Source: Phycisphaerales bacterium
Lineage (GTDB): Bacteria; Planctomycetota; Phycisphaerae; Phycisphaerales; UBA1924
Direction of reading: 5' to 3'
Assembly: GCA_023382935.1 (NCBI GenBank)
Contig: JAHDXL010000001.1
Span: 84,606-148,605 of the forward strand
DNA length: 64,000 nt
The notes under the pieces were generated by a model. It searched no databases. It worked only from the letters and a program-made list of their open reading frames with translations, and had not been told where the DNA came from. Below, in pieces: positions 11,261-22,554 of the stretch. Position 1 is the first letter of the stretch; each line of letters opens with the position of its first letter. The position numbers were made by a program, and so were the translations under genes.

Positions 11261-14227
11261 ATGCCGGAAACGAGCCTGCCAGAGCATGTTCGCGACCTGA
11301 CGGCCGCCGTGGAAGGGGAGGTGAGGCTGTCGCGGCATGATCGCATGCTGTACGCGACAGATGCGTCGGTGTACCAAGTGGAGCCGCTGGCGGTGGTCAT
11401 ACCTTCGTCGGTGGAGGACGCGGTTCGGGCGGTTCGGTTCTGTTCGCAGCGTGGGCTGCCGGTCCTGCCGCGTGGTGGGGGGACGAGCCTGGCCGGGCAG
11501 TGCACGAACCGGGCGGTGGTGCTGGACTTTTCGGTGCACTGCCGGGGGGTGGTGGAGGTGGAGGCGAGGGCGCGGTGGTGTCGGGTGGAGCCAGGCATCA
11601 CGATCGACGACCTCAACGACGTGCTCAGGCCAACGGGGCTGTTTTTTGCTCCAGATCCGGCGACGAGCAGGCAGGCCAACGTGGGCGGGTGCATCGGGAA
11701 CAACGCGGCCGGGGCGAGGTCGATCGTGTACGGGCGCACCAGCGAAAACCTGCTTGGCGTGGAGATCTGCACAGCCGGGGGGGAACGGCTGACGCTGGAA
11801 GAGGGTGCGGCGGTGCGCGACGCGCGCGTCGGCGACCTGACGCGGCGCGTGGTGGACGTCGTGCGGCGGCACAAGCAGTTGATACGCGATCGATTTCCAA
11901 GGACCATCCGCCGCAACGCGGGCTATGCGCTGGACATGATCTTGGCGCAACTGGACGCTGGAGGGGGCGACCTGTCGCGCGTGAATCTGGCGTCGCTGCT
12001 GTGCGGGAGCGAGGGCACGCTGGGCGTGACGCTGGGCGCGCGCCTGCGGCTGCACCCGATCCCGGCGGCGCGCGGACTGGCGGTGATCAGTTTCGAGACG
12101 CTGGACGAGGCCATTGACGCGGTGGTTCCGATCCTGTCGCTGTCGCCGTCGGCTGTGGAACTGCTGGATGACCTGGTGGTGTCGCTGGCGTCGGCGAACC
12201 ACGAGTATCGGCGCTATGTGGACCTGCTGCCGCGCTGCGATGGGCGCGAGGTGGCGGCGGTGCTGTACGTCGAGTTCACCGCTCGAGAGGATCGGGCCGA
12301 ACTGGAAGAGAAGTTTGCATCATTGCGGGCGACCGTCGGCGCGGGACGCACAGCGTGCTACACCGACGCGGGGGCGATGCTGGCGGCGTGGAAACTCCGC
12401 AAGGCGGGCGAACCGCTGCTGCACGGTATTCCCGGACGCCGCAAGCCGATCACGTTTGTAGAGGACAACGCGGTGCCGCCGGAGAACCTCGCGGAGTTTG
12501 TGCGTCGTTTCCGGGCGATCGTGGAGCGGCACGGGACGCGCGCGGCGTTTTGGGCGCATGCGTCGGTGGGCGTGCTGCATGTGCGGCCGCTGCTGGACAT
12601 TTCCGATGCGGATGATCGAAGGCGCATGACGGAAATGGCCGTCGAAGTGGCGGACCTGGCGCGGGAGATGGGCGGGGTGATGTCGGGCGAGCACGGGGAC
12701 GGGCGGGTTCGCGGGCCGCTGCTGGAGCGCTACTTTGGGCCTGAACTGATGCTGGCGTTCCGCGAGATCAAGGGGATTTTCGATCCAAGGAACCTGCTCA
12801 ACCCGGGCAACATCGTTGAGCCGGGCCCAATCGAGTCGATCACGGCGCACCTGCGTGTGAGGCCGGAAGAGCATGAGGTGCGCGTGCCCGCGGTCGAGAC
12901 GTTTTATCGCTACGAGGATCAGCACGGCTTCGATGCGGCACTGGAGACCTGCAACGGGGCCGGCGTGTGCCGCAAGAAGAGCGGCGGGACGATGTGTCCG
13001 AGTTATCAGGGGACGCTGGATGAACGCCACTCGACGCGCGGGCGAGGCAACGCGCTGCGGCTGGCGATCACGGGGCAGTTTTCGGGCAGGCATCCGGGGT
13101 GGAATGACCCGGAGACGCTGAAGACGCTGGACCTGTGCCTGAGTTGCAAGGCGTGCAAGAGCGAGTGTCCGAGCAACGTGGACGTGGCCAGGCTGAAGGC
13201 CGAGTATCTGGCGCAGAGCGACCGGGCCTCGGGCGGGCCGACGCTGCGCCGGCGCGTGTTCGGTCACATTCACCTGGTCAATCGGCTCGCAGCGATGGCG
13301 CCGGGGCTGGCCAACGCGATCAACGGGTCGAGGCTCGGCAAGCGGGTGCTGGCGGGGTTGCTGGATGTGGACCCGCGGCGCTCGATGCCGGCGTTTCATG
13401 GCTCGCTGAGGCGACGCTGGAAGGCGATGGACGCAGCCAGCCAGAGGCAGCAGGGCGGGAGCGCCGGTTCTCCCGGCAACGAGTCCCCGACGGTGGTGCT
13501 GCTGGTGGACACGTTCACAGCACACAACGAGCCGGAGATTGCGCTGGATGCGCGGCGTGTGCTGGAGGGCTTCGGGTATCAAGTGGAACTGTATCTGGGC
13601 AGTGATTTCGGGCGGGCGCTGATCTCGCAGGGGTTGCTGCGGCAGGCGATCGCCGACGCGGAGGGGCACATCGACCGGCTGTGGCCGATGGTGCAGAACG
13701 AGGCGGGGCCGATCCTGCTGACGCTGGAGCCGTCGTGCCAGAGCGCGATCGTGGACGACTGGGCGGATTTGCGGATCAGCCGCCCGCGTGAGCGCATTGA
13801 ACGGATCAGGGCGCGCACGCGGGACCTGTGCGACTTTCTGGAGCAGCACTGGAACGAGCACCCGCGCACGCCGGCGTGGCGTGCGCTCGACGCGCCGGTT
13901 GCGATTCACGGGCACTGCCATCAGAAGGCGTTGTTCGGGACGGGCGCGGCGCGGGCGCTGCTGCAGCGATTCACCACCGGCACGGTGATGGAACTGGAGA
14001 CGGGCTGCTGCGGGATGGCCGGGGCATTTGGCTTTTCGCGCGGGCATTTCGACCTTTCACGGCAGATTGCGGATCTGTCGATCGTGCCGCGTATTGCAGC
14101 GCTTTCCGAAGACACGCTCGTCGCGGCGAGCGGAACCTCGTGCCGGCACCAGGTTCGCGACTTCTGCCGGCGTTCTGCGGTGCACCCGATTCAGTTCATC
14201 GCGGGCGTCGTCGCAGACTGTTCGTAG
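11261..14227 (+). CDS. FAD-linked / Fe-S oxidoreductase, YdiJ (D-2-hydroxyacid dehydrogenase) type
   Basis: 988 residues joining three parts. The N-terminal PCMH-type FAD domain has LPRGGGTSLAGQ near residue 70 and NVGGCIGNNAAGARS; a FAD-oxidase C-terminal domain ends in SGEHGDGRVRGPLLER. A ferredoxin region follows, with cysteines at 564, 570 and 579 and a classical CLSCKACKSECP at 626-637. A CCG heterodisulfide-reductase-like region has GHCHQKALFG and GCCGMAGAFGF near residue 915. This order and length match YdiJ, shown in enterobacteria to oxidise D-2-hydroxyglutarate; substrate here is inferred. Cytoplasmic or membrane-associated electron donor to quinone. No Shine-Dalgarno. Confidence 0.88.
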   Translation: MPETSLPEHVRDLTAAVEGEVRLSRHDRMLYATDASVYQVEPLAVVIPSSVEDAVRAVRFCSQRGLPVLPRGGGTSLAGQCTNRAVVLDFSVHCRGVVEVEARARWCRVEPGITIDDLNDVLRPTGLFFAPDPATSRQANVGGCIGNNAAGARSIVYGRTSENLLGVEICTAGGERLTLEEGAAVRDARVGDLTRRVVDVVRRHKQLIRDRFPRTIRRNAGYALDMILAQLDAGGGDLSRVNLASLLCGSEGTLGVTLGARLRLHPIPAARGLAVISFETLDEAIDAVVPILSLSPSAVELLDDLVVSLASANHEYRRYVDLLPRCDGREVAAVLYVEFTAREDRAELEEKFASLRATVGAGRTACYTDAGAMLAAWKLRKAGEPLLHGIPGRRKPITFVEDNAVPPENLAEFVRRFRAIVERHGTRAAFWAHASVGVLHVRPLLDISDADDRRRMTEMAVEVADLAREMGGVMSGEHGDGRVRGPLLERYFGPELMLAFREIKGIFDPRNLLNPGNIVEPGPIESITAHLRVRPEEHEVRVPAVETFYRYEDQHGFDAALETCNGAGVCRKKSGGTMCPSYQGTLDERHSTRGRGNALRLAITGQFSGRHPGWNDPETLKTLDLCLSCKACKSECPSNVDVARLKAEYLAQSDRASGGPTLRRRVFGHIHLVNRLAAMAPGLANAINGSRLGKRVLAGLLDVDPRRSMPAFHGSLRRRWKAMDAASQRQQGGSAGSPGNESPTVVLLVDTFTAHNEPEIALDARRVLEGFGYQVELYLGSDFGRALISQGLLRQAIADAEGHIDRLWPMVQNEAGPILLTLEPSCQSAIVDDWADLRISRPRERIERIRARTRDLCDFLEQHWNEHPRTPAWRALDAPVAIHGHCHQKALFGTGAARALLQRFTTGTVMELETGCCGMAGAFGFSRGHFDLSRQIADLSIVPRIAALSEDTLVAASGTSCRHQVRDFCRRSAVHPIQFIAGVVADCS

Positions 14228-14357
14228 CGGGCTCCTTCCTGTCTCCAAGTCGTGACCGAGCCGAGCGTGAGGCGTGCGAGGCCGGCGTTCCCCCGATGAC
14301 ATGCGATCCCGCGCATTTCTCAGACCAGGACCGAAAACTCCGGGCGGGGGTGACCTG

Positions 14358-14370: not shown

Positions 14371-15330
14371 ATGCCAAGTTTGTTGTTCTCCGTCGCGTTG
14401 GTCGGTGTGGCCCTGATCTTGGTTTCGGGGTGCGGTTCGCAGCCCGTGCAACAGGCCGAGGGCGCCGTCGGAGACTCATCGGAATCGGCGCCAACGCCGG
14501 CGCCATTTGAGAGGCCGGGGCTGCACAACGTGGTGTGGATGAGCCCGAAGGTGTACAGCGGGTCAGTGCCTGATGGGGAGGCCGGGTTTGATTCGTTGGC
14601 GGCCATGGGGATCAGGACGGTCATCTCAGTGGACGGGGCACGGCCGGACCTGGATCGAGCCGGGGCGCGAGGCATGAGGTACGTCCACATTCCGATTCAG
14701 TATTCGGGCGTCAGGGAAGAGGCGGCGGTGCAACTGGCCGCGGCGGTTCGCGACCTGCCCGGCCCGATCTACGTGCACTGTCATCACGGCAAGCATCGGG
14801 GCCCGGCGGCGGCGTGTCTGGCGCTGGTGGAATCCGGGGCGTTTTCGGCCGAGCGCGGGGTGGAGTTGCTGAAGACAGCGGGCACATCGCAGAACTACCA
14901 AGGTCTGTATGAGGCGGTGGGCTGCGCGCGAGCGATCGATCCTTCGTCGCTCGACGGGGTGGCGGCGACGCTGGCGGCGACGGCGCCGGTGCCTGGGTTT
15001 GTATCGGCGATGTCGGGGCTGGAGCATGTGATGGAGCACCTGCGGGCAATCGAGGGGGCGGGGTGGAAGGCGCCGGAGGACCATCCCGACCTCGCGCCTG
15101 CCAGTGAGGCCGGATTGCTGCACGACTTGTTTCGCGCGGCGCGCGATGACTCGGTGAACGAGGCCGACGCGGACGATTTCGCGGCGTGGATGCGGGTTTC
15201 GCTCGATCAGTCGCGGGAACTCGAAGAGGCGTTGTCGCAGGGAGACGGCGTGCGGGCCAGCGCGGCGCTGGGCGCGGTGGCACAGACCTGCACCGACTGT
15301 CACAACCGGTATCGCAACCCAGGCAAGTGA
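14371..15330 (+). CDS. Lipoprotein: tyrosine-phosphatase-like domain fused to cytochrome c'-like domain
   Basis: 319 residues. A lipoprotein signal ends at LVSGCGS (lipobox cysteine 21), so the protein is anchored outside the cytoplasm. Residues 50-190 look like a dual-specificity/tyrosine phosphatase domain, with the P-loop HCHHGKHRG giving Cys137-x5-Arg143. The C-terminal 120 residues are helical and end in CTDCHNRYR (Cys307, Cys310, His311), the heme-attachment pattern and position of class II cytochrome c'. Known members of each family motivate the call; the fusion is what I see. Start at the ATG; a GTG at 14350 is possible. Convergent with the polytopic ferredoxin gene, a possible electron partner. 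Confidence 0.75.
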   Translation: MPSLLFSVALVGVALILVSGCGSQPVQQAEGAVGDSSESAPTPAPFERPGLHNVVWMSPKVYSGSVPDGEAGFDSLAAMGIRTVISVDGARPDLDRAGARGMRYVHIPIQYSGVREEAAVQLAAAVRDLPGPIYVHCHHGKHRGPAAACLALVESGAFSAERGVELLKTAGTSQNYQGLYEAVGCARAIDPSSLDGVAATLAATAPVPGFVSAMSGLEHVMEHLRAIEGAGWKAPEDHPDLAPASEAGLLHDLFRAARDDSVNEADADDFAAWMRVSLDQSRELEEALSQGDGVRASAALGAVAQTCTDCHNRYRNPGK

Positions 15331-15362: not shown

Positions 15363-17867
15363 TCAAGGTCTTGCCTCGTCCGCCCCTCCGCGACGCACAG
15401 CCTCATCCTGCCAGCGCGTTGCCTGTGCCTGATCGCCAGCATGTCGGTACAACTCAGCGGCGCGGAAAGCCAACACCGCGTTGTTGCTGCCCAACTCGGC
15501 GGCCCGCGCCATGACCGCGGCCGCGTCGTCGAATCGCTGGAGATTCGCCATCGCTGCGGCGCGCTGGGCCAGAAGCCAAGGCGAATCCGGATTCAGGCTG
15601 GAAGCCTGTTCGATCAACTGGAGCCCGCGCTGGGTGGAACGGTCATCGCGGAGACCCATGCCTCGAACGGCCCAGGCCGCACCGACCTGGAGCAGTTCCC
15701 AGGGATTGGTTCGGGCCTTGCTCTCAGCCCGGCGGAGGAGGTTCTCAGCCTCGCCGGGGTGTGCGAGCCGATCCCTGATCTGCGAGGCGGACAGCAGCAC
15801 GCCGACGCCGGCACGCGGAGAGGCCTGCGCAGCGGCGAGGGTGCGCAGCCCGTCGTCGTTTCGTCCCATCTGGAGCAGCAAGGCGGCAAGCCGCAGTTGG
15901 AGGCCCGGATCACGCGGGTCGGCCGCGATTGCCAAATCGGTCAGTCGCCCCGCGCGAGCGATGTCGCCGAGGGCGCCGGCGATTTCGGCGGATTCGATTG
16001 CGGCGGCGGCCTGCGAGCGGCGGCCTGGTGTGATCCTGGTCATGGCTGCGTCGAGCGCATCAGCGGCGCGGGAATTGCCCCCAATGGCGCCCCAGTAGCG
16101 TGCGCGCTCAATCCAGAACCAGGGGTCATCGCGCGCGGTTTCGGGGGCCTGGTCCCAGAGACGCTCGCCGGCTGGTACGCCTTCGCCAGCGGCGGCTTGC
16201 ACGGCCAGTTCGCGCCGCACGGCGTGCAGGTGTTCGTGGCGTGCCAGGGCTGCCTGCATGGCCTGGTCGACCTGAACCTGGCCGCCGCCGCGGGCGCGGA
16301 TGATCTCGGCCAGTTCGAACACGAGCGAGTCGGTCGGCTTGCCGGCGTGGATGACTTGGCGCAGCGCCCCATCGGCCCGCTCGAGATCGCCGAGCACCAG
16401 GCTGAGAAACGCGACGCGCACCAGTTCGTCGGCGTTGAGGTTCCATCCGAATCCACCGCGCGAGGGTGCATCTGTGATTTCGTAGCGGGATAGCGAGCGC
16501 CGCGCTCGCTTGCGCTCAGTGGCCGATGGCGCGAACTCCGGGCGCAGGGCCAGCGACGCGGGCACCTGAACCTGCGCGTGGAGCAGGTCGGCCTGCCAGC
16601 GTTGCCAGCGCACGGCGCCGCTCCATGCGGCGCCTGCGGCGCCGATCAGGCAGAGAAGCATGAACAACAGGCCTGCGGGGCGGAGTCTGCCCCTGAGTTT
16701 GAGTTGCCAAGGCTGGATGCGCACGTTGGCGTCGCGCGCCATTCGGATGAGCACCCAGGCACAGAAGGCGCCGATGCCCGCCATGCCCACGGCCATGAGC
16801 ATGGGCACGCTGCCGGCCATCTGTCGATAACAGACGAAAAGCAGCAGGAAGACGCCGGCGATGAGCAGTTCCTCAGCCAGACTTACGTCAAAGAGACGTG
16901 CGCGTGCCGTGCCGCGCGACCGGTTCCTGGCACCGTCGCGTCTGCGGGAGAAGACGGCCGGGGCACCGAGGCCGATGTAGAGCGCCTGATTGGGACAAAC
17001 CGCCACGCAGTCCATTGTCTTCATGCAGCCGGGGTCAATCACCTTGCCATAGTCTCGAACTTCCTCGTGCACGCGCACGTTGGAGGTGCACGCGGCGGTG
17101 CACTGCCCGCACCCCTCGCAGGCGTCGGTGACGCGGACGCGCGTGGGGCTGACCCTGTCGGCCAGCACGAACAGCCCGCCGTAGGGGCAGCCATAGGTGC
17201 AGAACCCCTTGGCGCCGAGGAAGTAGACGCTGGCGAAGCCGATGACGAAGAGGAAGGGGGCGACCATGTACCATGCGGGGAAGGTGGCCCAGAAGTCGTC
17301 GATGACGAAGTCGCTTTCGAAGCCGTCGAACGGTGCGACGGGCTTCATCCACATCGGCCTTTCGATGCCGGCGGTCTCCATCGTGGGATAGAGCACTTCG
17401 CGCTTGAAACTCGGCCAGACGAACATGTAGAGCGCCAGGCCGAGCGGCACGAGCATGAGCAGGCGCGAGCGGAAGGGCTTTGGGCGAATTCCCACTTTCT
17501 TCAGGAGGTAGAGACACAGATCCTGCAAGGCGATGACGTGGCACGCCCAGCCGCAAACGTAGCGTCCGAGCAGCAGGGTGGCGAGCAAGGCCAGTGCGAA
17601 GAATACGAAGCCGGCGTTGATGACGCCCTGCTCGAGGGTCTGCATGCTCTCGCTGGGCTCGACGGGCGAGATGGTCTTGCCGACCGCAAGCCACCATATG
17701 ATGTGCGCGATGATACCGACGTGTACGGCGATGAGCACGCCGGCTCGCCAATATCCCATGCGCGAACGGCGCGGAGTCTTGGGTTTGCCGGTCGGCTCGC
17801 GGCAGATTCTGAGGGAAACCGTGCCGTCCGACCGGACCCTGGCCACCTGCTTGCTCTTTCGGGGCAT
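15363..17867 (-). CDS. Polytopic 4Fe-4S ferredoxin membrane protein with C-terminal TPR region
   Basis: 834 residues. The N-terminal half is a NapH/NosR/CcoG-type membrane electron carrier: transmembrane segments, RYVCGWACH and GFCTYGCPYGG motifs, then a ferredoxin block with a complete CEGCGQCTAAC site and a second CMKTMDCVAVCP site with one cysteine fewer than the classical pattern. Three more hydrophobic segments follow. The C-terminal 400 residues are Ala/Leu-rich helical pairs reading as tetratricopeptide repeats. It probably passes electrons across the membrane to an unknown periplasmic or assembly partner. Start at ATG 17867 with TATCCT six bases upstream and no Shine-Dalgarno. Confidence 0.8.
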   Translation of the reverse strand: MPRKSKQVARVRSDGTVSLRICREPTGKPKTPRRSRMGYWRAGVLIAVHVGIIAHIIWWLAVGKTISPVEPSESMQTLEQGVINAGFVFFALALLATLLLGRYVCGWACHVIALQDLCLYLLKKVGIRPKPFRSRLLMLVPLGLALYMFVWPSFKREVLYPTMETAGIERPMWMKPVAPFDGFESDFVIDDFWATFPAWYMVAPFLFVIGFASVYFLGAKGFCTYGCPYGGLFVLADRVSPTRVRVTDACEGCGQCTAACTSNVRVHEEVRDYGKVIDPGCMKTMDCVAVCPNQALYIGLGAPAVFSRRRDGARNRSRGTARARLFDVSLAEELLIAGVFLLLFVCYRQMAGSVPMLMAVGMAGIGAFCAWVLIRMARDANVRIQPWQLKLRGRLRPAGLLFMLLCLIGAAGAAWSGAVRWQRWQADLLHAQVQVPASLALRPEFAPSATERKRARRSLSRYEITDAPSRGGFGWNLNADELVRVAFLSLVLGDLERADGALRQVIHAGKPTDSLVFELAEIIRARGGGQVQVDQAMQAALARHEHLHAVRRELAVQAAAGEGVPAGERLWDQAPETARDDPWFWIERARYWGAIGGNSRAADALDAAMTRITPGRRSQAAAAIESAEIAGALGDIARAGRLTDLAIAADPRDPGLQLRLAALLLQMGRNDDGLRTLAAAQASPRAGVGVLLSASQIRDRLAHPGEAENLLRRAESKARTNPWELLQVGAAWAVRGMGLRDDRSTQRGLQLIEQASSLNPDSPWLLAQRAAAMANLQRFDDAAAVMARAAELGSNNAVLAFRAAELYRHAGDQAQATRWQDEAVRRGGADEARP

Positions 17868-17873
17868 GCTGGA

Positions 17874-17879
17874 AGGATA
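17874..17879 (-). promoter_or_regulatory. Candidate -10 box, leaderless start of the ferredoxin-TPR gene
   Basis: On the minus strand TATCCT ends 6 nt before the ATG at 17867, with no Shine-Dalgarno sequence between. Confidence 0.4.
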
Positions 17880-17916
17880 AGGGGCAAAGGTGGAGCGGAG
17901 GCCGAGGGGGCCGACC

Positions 17917-18582
17917 TTACGGGCGGGGCGTCCGAGTCCCCGCCCCTGCGACTTCCAGCACGCGCTGGCCGGTGGTGGCGAAGAGGCGATCGGCGGCGTG
18001 CGCACGCACGCACGACCCGCCCGTGAACAGACTGAAGGCCGGCAGAATCAGCCCTAGCCCGCCCACGAGATGAAAGCACGGGAGTTTGATCGAGTTGGCG
18101 GCCCCGCCAATGCGCACCGCGGGATGCACATGCCCGGCGACCCACGGCCGCGTCCGGCTCGCCTCGAACGGGTCGTGCACCAATTCCAGGCCGTCCTCGA
18201 CCGTCCCCGGCTGCAGCACCCGAAGCGACCATGCCTCGGCCACACCGTCGAGCACGCAGTCGTGGTTTCCGCGCACCACTCGCATATCCCAGCGGTGCGA
18301 GCGTCGCCAGTTCGCGACCGACTCGATCAGGCGTTCGGTCAGGCCGGCGGCTGCGTGCAGCAAGTCACCGAGCACGACGACGCATTCGACACCGGTGAGG
18401 GCAACGAGCCGATCGATGCGGTCAAGTTGCTCGGCCGCGTCGCCGTCACACATCGGCGCACCGGCCGCACGCATGGATTCAGACTTGCCCAGGTGCAGAT
18501 CGGCGACGAGGAGCGTGCCATCGCGCCGGGCGGCCCGCGCGCCGAGCAGTTCGATCTGGATGCCCCCGACGTCGACTCTCAC
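17917..18582 (-). CDS. pdeM: Ligase-associated DNA damage response endonuclease PdeM
   Basis: 221 residues of the calcineurin-like metallophosphoesterase fold. Motifs in order: VADLHLGKSE, VVLGDLLHAAAG, VVRGNHDC and VAGHVHPAV supply the metal ligands. PdeM occurs with the Lhr-type helicase encoded just upstream, an LHR exonuclease and an ATP-dependent ligase in a repair module. The start is GTG 18582: it gives a GTGA overlap with the lhr stop and has AAGGGG at good spacing; a GTG at 18597 is the alternative. The ligase and exonuclease genes are not in this window. Confidence 0.92.
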   Translation of the reverse strand: MRVDVGGIQIELLGARAARRDGTLLVADLHLGKSESMRAAGAPMCDGDAAEQLDRIDRLVALTGVECVVVLGDLLHAAAGLTERLIESVANWRRSHRWDMRVVRGNHDCVLDGVAEAWSLRVLQPGTVEDGLELVHDPFEASRTRPWVAGHVHPAVRIGGAANSIKLPCFHLVGGLGLILPAFSLFTGGSCVRAHAADRLFATTGQRVLEVAGAGTRTPRP

Positions 18583-21041
18583 GTAAGCCCCTTCCACCTG
18601 GCTTCGATGTTTTCGATGCGTTTGTCGACGCTTTCCAGACTCACGCGGCCCCGGATGCGTTCGACCACCAGCGGCAGCGCCAGTGGCGTGGGACGGGCGG
18701 TGTCGACGAGGCGGAGACGGCTCGTGCTCAGCCGGTTGAGCAATCGCCCCATGCGGGACTGCTCGAACTGCCTTTCCAGCACTTCGCGCCGGGCCTGGTA
18801 CATGAGCAGGTTGTCGGGGTCGAACTGCTCGAAGACATCGTAGAGCAGTCCGGCCCGCCCCTGGAGATGCCGCATGCCGCGCTGCGCCCCCGGGTAGTTC
18901 TGAAAGACCAGCCCGGATACGCGCGCGATTTCGCGGAACTGGCTGCGAGCCAGGGCCGAGAGATTCACGCTCTCCAGCGCGTCGTCTGCCAGGTTGGCGA
19001 TGGAGAACAGGTCGTGGTCGATGAGGGCGCCGAATGGATATGGGTCGTCGCTGAGCAGTTCAAATCCATAGTCATTGGCCGAGATGGCGAACGTGCCCGG
19101 TTGGCGCCGACCGAGGCGGAGAGCGACGAGGGCGCCAAGACCCCCATGCACGAGTCGGCCTTCGAAGGGAAAGACGAAGAGGTGATGCCCGTCGCGGGTC
19201 TGGCAGGTTTCACAGAGCAGTTCATCGGGCTGTGGGATGATCGATTCGGTCTGCTGCACGCGCACGAGGCGGGCGGCGGCGCGCAACTCGGGCTCGCGGG
19301 CTTCGCAAGCCGAGGCGAGCGTCTGGCGGACGGCCTGGGAGAGTGACTCGGAGATGGGCAGGCGTGTGCCCGACCAGATGGGGGTGAGACTGGTGCGGCC
19401 GCGGGCCGCGCGAGCGTAGGCGGTCAGGTCGCGCACGGTGACCAGTTCGAGGGTGCGGCCGGCGAAGTAGAATTTCTGCCCTATCTTGAGGTTGGCGATG
19501 AAGTTTTCCTCGATGCTGCCGATGCGTCTGCCGCTCGGGAAGCGCAGTTCCATGGTGGCATCGCCGGTGATGGTGCCGACGTTGAAGCGGTGGAGCGTGG
19601 CGAGGTTACGATTTTCGACGCGGTAGAGGCCCTGGGAATCGGCAACCACGCGCTTGTATTCGGGATAGGCGCCAAGCACGTCGCCGCCGTCTCGCACCAG
19701 GCGCAAGGCCCAATCAAACTCGTCGCGTGTCAGGCCGGCGAAGGCATGGGCGGTGCGGACTTCCTCGTAGAGTTCATCAGGGCGAAAGCCGCCGCCGAGC
19801 GCGCAGGTGACCAGGTGCTGGGTGAGCACGTCGAGCGGCTTGCATTCGCTGACCCGCGGCTCGATGTGTCCAGCGGCGATCGCGCGCCGCACAGCGGCCA
19901 CCTCGATCATCTCCATCCCGTGCGTAGGCACGCAAGTGATGCGGCAGGTCTGCCCCGGCCGATGGCTGGCGCGACCCGCACGCTGCATGAGGCGTGCGAT
20001 CCCCTTGGGCGAGCCGATCTGCACGACATGCTCGACGGGCGCAAAGTCGACTCCCAGATCGAGCGAACTGGTCGCAACGACGATGCGGATGGAGCCGTCT
20101 TTGAGGCCGCGTTCGACCTGCTCGCGCTCGGCCCGGTCGATGGAGCCGTGGTGCAGGGCCATGATCGAGCGCCACTCGGGGCGGGCCAGTTCGATGGCGC
20201 AGAACCAGCGTTCGGCCTGCGAGCGTGTGTTCACGAACACGAGGGTGGACTCGCCCGGATCGAGAGCATGCAGGACGCGATCGAGTTGGTGAATGCCCAG
20301 ATGCCCGGCCCAGGGGAAGCGGTCGTCGACGCCGGGCAGCACGGATTCGATGATGATGGGCCGGTCGATCCGTGCGGTGATGAGAGTTCCGGGGTTGCCC
20401 GCGCCGACAGCCGCCTGCAGGGCCTCGTCAAGGTTGCTGATCGTCGCCGACATGGCCCAGGTGCGCAGATCGGGGTTGAAACGGCGCAGGCGGGCCAGGG
20501 CCAGTTCGGTCTGCGTGCCGCGCTTGGAACTGAGCAACTCGTGCCACTCGTCGAGGACGACGCATCGCAAGCCGCGGAACTTTTCGCGTGCATCCGGCTG
20601 CGTGAGCAGGAGCGTGAGGGACTCGGGCGTGGTGATGAGGATGGAGGGGAGGTGCTGCTTCTGGCGTGCGCGGACGCTGGACGATGTGTCGCCGGTGCGC
20701 GTTTCGACGCACAAACTGGTGATGCCGAGGGCGTCGAGCGGGCGTCGGATGGCCAGTTCCACGTCGCGGCTGACGGCGCGGAGGGGGGTGACGTAAAGCA
20801 TCCCCAGCCCTGCGGGCGGGCGGGCGATGAGATCACCCATCGGTCCGAAACACGCGGCGTAGGTCTTGCCCGCACCGGTCGGCACATGGATCAGCCCGCT
20901 GTGGCCCCGGGCGTAGGCGGACCAGCCCTGCTTCTGGAAAGGAAAGGGTTTCCACCCCAGCGAACTCATCCACTCGGCCAGCGGGCGCACCGATGCGGGC
21001 GTGCGAGCGGCGGGCGTGCGGACTGTGGCAGGGGCGGGCAT
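18579..21041 (-). CDS. lhr: Ligase-associated DEXH-box DNA helicase (Lhr family)
   Basis: 820 residues. ATP-dependent 3'-5' helicase of the Lhr core type. Walker A is VPTGAGKTYAA near residue 55; the DExH box reads DEWHEL; STLVFVNTRSQAE, ATSSLDLGVDF and LMQRAGRASHRPGQ are the later SF2 motifs. A winged-helix and Lhr C-terminal region follows. The length fits the ligase-associated subgroup. Translationally coupled to pdeM. The ATG at 21041 is preceded by TACGCT at 8 nt and no Shine-Dalgarno; divergent from the photolyase gene, so two repair genes share one 88-bp intergenic region. Confidence 0.93.
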   Translation of the reverse strand: MPAPATVRTPAARTPASVRPLAEWMSSLGWKPFPFQKQGWSAYARGHSGLIHVPTGAGKTYAACFGPMGDLIARPPAGLGMLYVTPLRAVSRDVELAIRRPLDALGITSLCVETRTGDTSSSVRARQKQHLPSILITTPESLTLLLTQPDAREKFRGLRCVVLDEWHELLSSKRGTQTELALARLRRFNPDLRTWAMSATISNLDEALQAAVGAGNPGTLITARIDRPIIIESVLPGVDDRFPWAGHLGIHQLDRVLHALDPGESTLVFVNTRSQAERWFCAIELARPEWRSIMALHHGSIDRAEREQVERGLKDGSIRIVVATSSLDLGVDFAPVEHVVQIGSPKGIARLMQRAGRASHRPGQTCRITCVPTHGMEMIEVAAVRRAIAAGHIEPRVSECKPLDVLTQHLVTCALGGGFRPDELYEEVRTAHAFAGLTRDEFDWALRLVRDGGDVLGAYPEYKRVVADSQGLYRVENRNLATLHRFNVGTITGDATMELRFPSGRRIGSIEENFIANLKIGQKFYFAGRTLELVTVRDLTAYARAARGRTSLTPIWSGTRLPISESLSQAVRQTLASACEAREPELRAAARLVRVQQTESIIPQPDELLCETCQTRDGHHLFVFPFEGRLVHGGLGALVALRLGRRQPGTFAISANDYGFELLSDDPYPFGALIDHDLFSIANLADDALESVNLSALARSQFREIARVSGLVFQNYPGAQRGMRHLQGRAGLLYDVFEQFDPDNLLMYQARREVLERQFEQSRMGRLLNRLSTSRLRLVDTARPTPLALPLVVERIRGRVSLESVDKRIENIEARWKGLT

Positions 21042-21049
21042 GGAATCCC

Positions 21050-21055
21050 AGCGTA
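21050..21055 (-). promoter_or_regulatory. Candidate -10 box, leaderless start of lhr
   Basis: TACGCT on the minus strand ends 8 nt before the ATG at 21041; no Shine-Dalgarno sequence intervenes. It is centred in an AGCGTACGCT palindrome (21050-21059). Confidence 0.3.
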
Positions 21056-21129
21056 CGCTGGAATGCGGCGTCGGGAGTGCATCGATGAGGCGACGCCTGG
21101 CGAAGGAGGCCGAGAGCACGGGAGGAGCG

Positions 21130-22554
21130 ATGCGTCCACTGGTCTGGTTCCGAAGCGACTTGCGCGTGCACGACAACCGGGCGTTGGCCCAGGCGTGCCG
21201 CGACGCCGCCGGGCCGGTGCTGGGGGTGTTCACGATCTGCCCGAAACAGTGGGAGGCGCACGACTGGTCAAGCGCGAAGGTCAGCCTGGTGATGCGCACG
21301 CTGGCGGAGTTGTCAGGTGCGCTGACCGCGCTGAACATCCCGCTGCTAATCGTGGAGGAGCCAACTTTCGCCGGGGTGCCTGGGCGACTGCTGGCATTGG
21401 CTGAGCGCCATCAGTGCGACGGGTTGTATTTCAGCCGCGAGTACGAGTGGAACGAGCGTACCCGCGACGAGCAGGTGAGCCAGGCTTTTGAGCGCACGGG
21501 GCGCGTGGTCCGGACCTTCAGCGATCGCGTGCTGTTTGAACCGGGGATACTGCGCACCCAGAGCGGGGGAATGTACACGGTGTATTCGCCGTTCCGCCGG
21601 GCGTGCATCGCGCGATTGCTCGAGGGCGGGCTGCCCGAGGTGGAACCTGCGCCGCGGGCTCGTGCGGGGTCCGTATGCAAGCCGGACCGCGTGCCGGAGG
21701 CGGTTGCCGGGTTTGGTGGGCCGACGCACGCGGACCTGTGGGCGGCGGGAGAGAGCGAGGCAAAAAAACGACTGGATCGTTTTGCGCGCGCGCGAATGGC
21801 GGATTACAGGGAGGCCCGCGATTTGCTGGCCGAGCCCGGAACGAGTGAACTGTCTCCGTATCTTGCGATCGGGGCCATTTCAATCAGGGCGTGTCTGGCA
21901 AGGGCAGCCAGGGCGGCGGAGGGGACGATTGACGGCGGGCCAGCGGGGCCCTGCACGTGGATCAACGAGTTACTGTGGCGCGAGTTCTACACCCATGTGA
22001 TGTGGGGGTTCCCGCGTGTGAGCAAGGGACGGGCTTTTCGGCCGGAAACCGAGTCGATCCGGTGGGAGGAAGATGAGCGGCTGTTTCGGGCATGGTGCGA
22101 GGGGAAGACGGGGTATCCGATCGTGGACGCGGGGATGCATCAAATGGCGCAGACAGGCTGGATGCACAACCGGGCGCGCATGATCGTGGCGTCGTTCCTG
22201 ACCAAGGATCTGGGCATCGACTGGCGAAGCGGCGAGCGGTTTTTCATGCGGCACCTGGTCGATGGCGACCTGGCGAACAACAACGGGGGATGGCAGTGGT
22301 CGGCCTCGACGGGGACGGACGCGCAGCCGTACTTCCGGATATTCAACCCGGTGTCGCAGAGCAGGCGGTATGACCCGAAGGGGGCATACATCCGCCGGTA
22401 TGTGCCGGAACTGGAGAGACTGGACGAGAAGCAGATCCACGAGGGGGGCGGGCTGTTCAGGCCGGGCAGGTATCCGGCGCCCATCGTCGATCATGCGACG
22501 GCGCGAGAGGCGGCGTTGCGACGGTTTGGGGGGAACAGTGAGGCGTCGCGTTGA
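21130..22554 (+). CDS. phr: Deoxyribodipyrimidine photolyase (cryptochrome/photolyase family)
   Basis: 474 residues. Repairs UV pyrimidine dimers using light through FAD. The N-terminal antenna domain begins PLVWFRSDLRVHDNRAL. The FAD-binding domain shows ELLWREFYTHVM, TGYPIVDAGMHQMAQTGWMH and DWRSGERFFMRHLVDGDLA followed by NNGGWQWSASTGTD, all class I CPD photolyase hallmarks. GGAGGAGCG directly before the ATG sets the start. Divergent from lhr, consistent with a small repair neighbourhood. Confidence 0.96.
   Translation: MRPLVWFRSDLRVHDNRALAQACRDAAGPVLGVFTICPKQWEAHDWSSAKVSLVMRTLAELSGALTALNIPLLIVEEPTFAGVPGRLLALAERHQCDGLYFSREYEWNERTRDEQVSQAFERTGRVVRTFSDRVLFEPGILRTQSGGMYTVYSPFRRACIARLLEGGLPEVEPAPRARAGSVCKPDRVPEAVAGFGGPTHADLWAAGESEAKKRLDRFARARMADYREARDLLAEPGTSELSPYLAIGAISIRACLARAARAAEGTIDGGPAGPCTWINELLWREFYTHVMWGFPRVSKGRAFRPETESIRWEEDERLFRAWCEGKTGYPIVDAGMHQMAQTGWMHNRARMIVASFLTKDLGIDWRSGERFFMRHLVDGDLANNNGGWQWSASTGTDAQPYFRIFNPVSQSRRYDPKGAYIRRYVPELERLDEKQIHEGGGLFRPGRYPAPIVDHATAREAALRRFGGNSEASR

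Follow-up and report, generated by a model that had tools for sequence, protein, structure and literature searches.

An exported planctomycete protein that joins a phosphatase-type P-loop cysteine to a class II cytochrome c: a putative redox-coupled enzyme

The sequence analyzed here (the window) is a stretch of 64,000 nucleotides from a Phycisphaerales bacterium (contig JAHDXL010000001.1, positions 84,606 to 148,605). An open reading frame on its plus strand (14371 to 15330) translates into a protein of 319 amino acids with a Cys137-x5-Arg143 loop (HCHHGKHR) and a terminal CTDCHNRYR motif (C307, C310, and H311). On the basis of this translation, Pfam matches, and AlphaFold2 modeling, the whole gene was annotated as encoding an exported PTP-SAK/class II cytochrome c fusion. 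The start codon is uncertain: if translation began at the in-frame ATG at 14296, the protein would be 25 residues longer, with Lys/Arg ahead of the hydrophobic stretch. Read from position 14371, the protein begins with a signal region (14371 to 14433, plus strand), consisting of a hydrophobic leader and a lipobox (LVSG-C21). A cysteine occupies column 21 in 87 of 126 homologues, and many of the members without Cys21 start with an apparent ordinary signal peptide. Judging from these N termini, the fusion protein is probably exported and mostly membrane anchored, in agreement with its earlier designation as a lipoprotein.

Upstream lies a gene for an FAD-linked oxidase/Fe-S protein similar to D-2-hydroxyglutarate dehydrogenase and GlcD (11261 to 14227, plus strand), in which the FAD-linked oxidase and Fe-S parts form a single, YdiJ/GlcD-GlpC-like chain of 988 amino acids. 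At two other loci, L059 and L074, relatives of this oxidase likewise lie no more than about 2.5 kb from the fusion gene, which is more often than we would expect by chance. Downstream and convergent, a gene at 15363 to 17948 (minus strand) encodes a NapH/MauN-like polyferredoxin, a membrane protein that carries a long TPR tail as a fusion, and at L059 a 50%-identical polyferredoxin-TPR fusion is likewise convergent to the phosphatase-cytochrome gene. The next region (17917 to 21338, minus strand) encodes a PdeM endonuclease adjoining a ligase-associated DEXH helicase, a pair that is part of a ligase-associated DNA damage response set, with a photolyase gene beside it (21001 to 22554, plus strand). 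The original prediction had proposed that the adjacent polyferredoxin might supply electrons to the heme. However, a relative was present beside only one (L059) of about 75 homologous loci, and we therefore abandoned the polyferredoxin as a fixed partner. Neither it nor the FAD oxidase is a general neighbor across these loci, and no conserved operon was found among the Pfam-annotated immediate neighbors, none of the families occurring at more than three loci. A gene that is usually solitary suits a self-contained enzyme-plus-carrier and lends no support to a fixed ferredoxin donor.

A search for further proteins with this domain pair yielded the 126 homologues that were aligned, from Planctomycetota, Verrucomicrobiota, and Hydrogenedentota. 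At E ≤ 0.001, 33 of 61 related genomes contained a relative, a few of the weaker matches spanning the phosphatase-fold part only. A species-wide collection contained at least 80 records with relatives, and all of those with a named phylum belonged to one of the same three phyla. Among 294 sampled Planctomycetota genomes, about 96, or roughly a third, contained a phosphatase-fold profile match with E<1e-44, a count taken from the match list for a score class with reading frames of 290 amino acids or longer; a second, weaker score class consisted mostly of shorter, stand-alone relatives with HCxHGxDRTG-like loops. When 33 top-class loci were opened, a CXXCH domain was present in 32, and the remaining sequence (L106) ends inside the domain. 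Essentially all cytochrome-profile matches in the same 294 genomes (E<1e-8) adjoined a phosphatase-fold match, the sole exception (G198:C136) being what is left, at the end of a contig, of a copy that had been split. Since strong cytochrome matches always adjoin a phosphatase-fold match, the two domains are likely to act together. In a tree of the phosphatase-fold domain, all 47 sampled fusions fell on one side of a branch (support, 99/97; 98% of bootstrap trees). This one-branch grouping, in combination with the paired profile matches, indicates that the fusion arose once and that its domains remain joined.

Two atypical loci should be mentioned. L128, from a genome (G321) of the same family as the window genome, encodes a divergent fusion in which the P-loop has changed to CETGRDRAA, with an intact CXXCH domain; a Na/Ca-exchanger-like sequence upstream of this fusion is read in the same open frame. 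At L129 (G200), a phosphatase-fold domain with the loop HCHHGKHRGG lacks the cytochrome and is followed by an apparent second, degenerate copy of the domain. Two other lines of evidence were set aside. Covariation between the domains (MI-APC, 126 sequences) hinted at proximity of cytochrome helix B (residues 245 to 259) to the helix following the P-loop and to residues 182 to 186, a signal that looks phylogenetic, and co-occurrence with heme-copper oxidases was uninformative, as these are present in 60 of the 61 related genomes.

The first domain, residues 46 to 198 (14506 to 14964, plus strand), has a DSP/PTP fold. Pfam placed a PTP-SAK (PF22784) match at residues 61 to 194, just above the cutoff (29.3 versus 27 bits), and the AlphaFold2 model of the full protein, for which an 80-sequence alignment of homologues served as input, showed an alpha/beta DSP fold and, C-terminal to it, a four-helix bundle (mean pLDDT, 90; pTM, 0.82). 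The best solved relatives in fold and profile searches were TpbA, DUF442, PFA-DSP/Siw14, and DUSP23. TpbA matched the fold with a Z score of 15.6 (rmsd of 3.2 over 155 residues), PFA-DSP1 and Siw14 did so with Z scores of about 15, and TpbA was also the nearest solved relative by profile (E of 2.5e-11), with DUF442 behind it (1.5e-6). The P-loop itself, H136-C137-H138-H139-G140-K141-H142-R143 (14776 to 14799, plus strand), is strongly conserved: H136, C137, G140, and R143 are invariant, and the three additional histidines are present in 125 of the 126 homologues. Complete conservation was further observed for P108, Y111, G178, L179, M214, C307, C310, H311, and R315. With C137, R143, C307, C310, and H311 all invariant, the pairing of the two motifs is no accident of sequence.

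The residues that ordinarily assist hydrolysis have drifted. Ser112 (14704 to 14706, plus strand) aligns to the general-acid Asp105 of TpbA, a position at which 85 of the 126 homologues have Asp and the others N, A, S, or H, and Gly144 (14800 to 14802, plus strand) occupies the site next to the P-loop Arg that is ordinarily Ser/Thr and at which the family has Ser (57), Gly (66), or Ala (3). Both helpers occur together in only 33 of 126 members, and the tree requires at least 18 changes at the general-acid position and at least 8 at the post-Arg position. With Ser112 for the acid Asp and Gly144 for Ser/Thr, the window protein departs from the canonical DSP/PTP phosphatases on both counts. It also departs from the PFA-DSP loop HCxxGKHRT, in that HCHHGKHR is kept and Thr follows it in 0 of 126 sequences, and its score against the NCBIfam model for DUF442 sulfurtransferases (TIGR01244) was 16.7 bits, below the cutoff of 85.85. 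From these alignments, the very label "phosphatase" seems doubtful for the window protein, which lacks both catalytic helpers, and the alternative already allowed for in the original prediction, a nonphosphatase use of the fold, is supported. Besides C21, C137, C307, and C310, no widely conserved cysteine was found among the 126 aligned fusions, which makes a classical disulfide switch of Cys137 unlikely.

The second domain, residues 207 to 316 (14989 to 15318, plus strand), is a class II cytochrome c four-helix bundle according to Pfam, AlphaFold2, and fold matches. The Cytochrom_C_2 (PF01322) match, at residues 266 to 315, is just above the cutoff (29.0 versus 26.5 bits). Folded alone, the domain reached a pLDDT of 93, and its structural matches were cytochrome b562 and cytochrome c'. 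The profile, the four-helix bundle, and a C-terminal CXXCH in all 126 homologues together place it in the class II cytochromes c. The heme c attachment site, C307-T-D-C310-H311 with R315 (15289 to 15315, plus strand), is accompanied by the invariant Met214 of helix A (15010 to 15012, plus strand), predicted to be the axial (sixth) heme ligand. In dozens of b562-type entries, positions 6 to 113 of the model align to residues 1 to 106, so that M214, H311, and R315 superpose on Met7, His102, and Arg106, respectively, a register that was read from the end points of the aligned ranges and assumes an ungapped helix A. Sequence-profile registers for helix A (b562, 15 to 114 aligned to 7 to 106; phmmer cytochrome c', 209 to 19) conflict with this structural register, which we preferred. 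In this register the ligand positions are predicted to be those of b562/c-556-like cytochromes, with a helix-A Met and a C-terminal His that are both invariant. Since Met214 occupies the place of the axial Met7 of b562, the simplest reading of the superposition is that the heme is probably six-coordinate, low-spin, and His/Met ligated and relays single electrons.

Pfam, AlphaFold2, and the 126 homologues thus agree with the central part of the original prediction, an exported protein joining a Cys-x5-Arg phosphatase fold to a CXXCH four-helix cytochrome; the two checks set against it, for a missing four-helix bundle and for a CTDCH motif that varies among homologues, did not refute it. Its proposal that the protein is under gas (NO or CO) control fared less well. 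In such a scheme, a five-coordinate cytochrome c' would respond to NO or CO and thereby gate the phosphatase domain. This would fit the naming of PF01322 for cytochrome c', the presence of cytochromes c' with proximal NO among the top matches by sequence and by fold, and the conservation of the Arg four residues after the heme His. A Met near the iron also occurs in some five-coordinate cytochromes c'. However, the invariant Met214 at the place of b562 Met7 predicts an occupied sixth site, the distal residue in cytochrome c' differs between species, and we regard gas control as very improbable. Less remote, although still unlikely, is an exported phosphatase of the PFA-DSP type, hydrolyzing phosphoanhydrides or activated phosphates without a general acid, with His142 as the base and with the redox state of the heme or of Cys137 as the switch. 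PFA-DSP/Siw14 proteins, which are inositol pyrophosphatases, are cytoplasmic eukaryotic enzymes that share the GKHR P-loop and the missing WPD acid with the window protein; unlike the fusion family, they have an essential Thr after the Arg and no heme. The loop of AtPFA-DSP1, which also works without a WPD acid, is HCKRGKHRT, identical to HCHHGKHR at 6 of the 8 places of HCKRGKHR; H155 is its proposed base, with mutants losing 95 to 98% of activity (PMC9038691). Its T157A mutant, changed at the Thr after the Arg, lost more than 97% of activity (PMC9038691), and 69 of the 126 fusions, the window protein included, have Gly or Ala at the equivalent place. The fold matches to PFA-DSP1 and Siw14 and the profile match to the phosphatase TpbA speak for hydrolysis, whereas the lack of a conserved redox partner Cys speaks against such a switch, and a hydrolase needs no fused electron carrier. 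TpbA, a periplasmic DUSP of Pseudomonas aeruginosa belonging to PF22784, resembles the window protein in its DSP fold, export, and HCxxGxxR loop but has the loop HCKHGNNRT, the acid Asp105, and no heme domain, whereas the fusion family has HCHHGKHR(G/S), no conserved Asp, and a heme domain that is always attached. Since TpbA D105A keeps about half of its activity (PMC4409338), the missing Asp is not decisive against a phosphatase.

It seems improbable, finally, that the P-loop is a noncatalytic docking module for a phosphorylated or sulfated partner, to which it would bring the small cytochrome, in a protein that is otherwise an electron carrier. Such a role would be consistent with catalytic helpers that drift while the anion-binding loop stays and with the retention of the heme domain at L128 despite its degenerate loop. 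Yet Cys137 is invariant in all 126 fusions, although mere binding would tolerate Ser, and the stand-alone relatives have full catalytic loops.

We tentatively favor, as more likely than a gas-gated phosphatase, a redox-coupled P-loop-cysteine enzyme, because the Cys/Arg loop has been kept and the hydrolysis helpers drift while a His cluster and a heme have been gained. Consistent with such an enzyme, C137, R143, M214, C307, C310, H311, and R315 are kept together in 126 of 126 sequences. In the proposed mechanism, the intact Cys-x5-Arg loop, rebuilt around three extra histidines, would bind a small oxyanion or an oxyanion-bearing substrate; Cys137 would act as a thiolate nucleophile or as a sulfur/oxyanion carrier; and the tethered heme would take up or supply electrons at the P-loop site and may pass them on to the periplasmic respiratory chain. 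The chemistry is perhaps sulfur based, the nearest chemical precedent being the DUF442 sulfurtransferases (Blh, CstB, and DUF442-SQR), which share the DSP fold, the essential Cys and Arg, the lack of phosphatase helpers after the loop, and fusion to redox enzymes but, unlike the window family, have the loop CRTGTR and no heme fusion. DUF442 is a thiosulfate sulfurtransferase that needs Cys and Arg and is joined to sulfide- or persulfide-oxidizing enzymes (PMC8533005, PMC5823870). Against sulfur or redox chemistry, no conserved operon among the roughly 75 loci appears to point in that direction, the nearest profile relative, TpbA, is a true phosphatase, TIGR01244 scores far below its cutoff, and the GKHR loop is common to PFA-DSP phosphatases. 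The more specific proposal of a new class of exported, cytochrome-linked oxidoreductase, in which a His-ringed Cys of the DSP fold performs redox chemistry on a bound oxyanion (of S, P, or As) with a covalently tethered His/Met heme c as electron partner, is more speculative, and we consider it unlikely at present.

To our knowledge, phosphatase-fold cysteines and c-type hemes almost never occur in one polypeptide, and no description of a phosphatase-fold/cytochrome fusion was found in the open literature that we searched. Each of the two domain families is known, but their fixed fusion, the His-rich loop, and the predicted His/Met heme are apparently undescribed as far as the open literature shows. 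The cytochrome module has the four-helix bundle, the C-terminal CXXCHxxxR, and the Met, His, and Arg places of class II cytochromes c (cytochrome c' and c-556) and b562. Known class II cytochromes, however, are free-standing carriers, while here a 110-residue module is fused to a P-loop enzyme fold, and the conserved W..P..HPDL.P loop joining helices A and B sets it apart from known members. Given a pair that originated once and is fixed in all three phyla, the chemistries of its two halves must be coupled. The invariant key residues and the small, two-domain size of the protein should allow gas sensing to be told apart from redox-gated hydrolysis and from redox chemistry on oxyanions or sulfur. 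If the favored reading is true, the DSP superfamily would gain a redox-linked member, and one of the many uncharacterized exported cytochromes of planctomycetes would acquire a defined, testable role.
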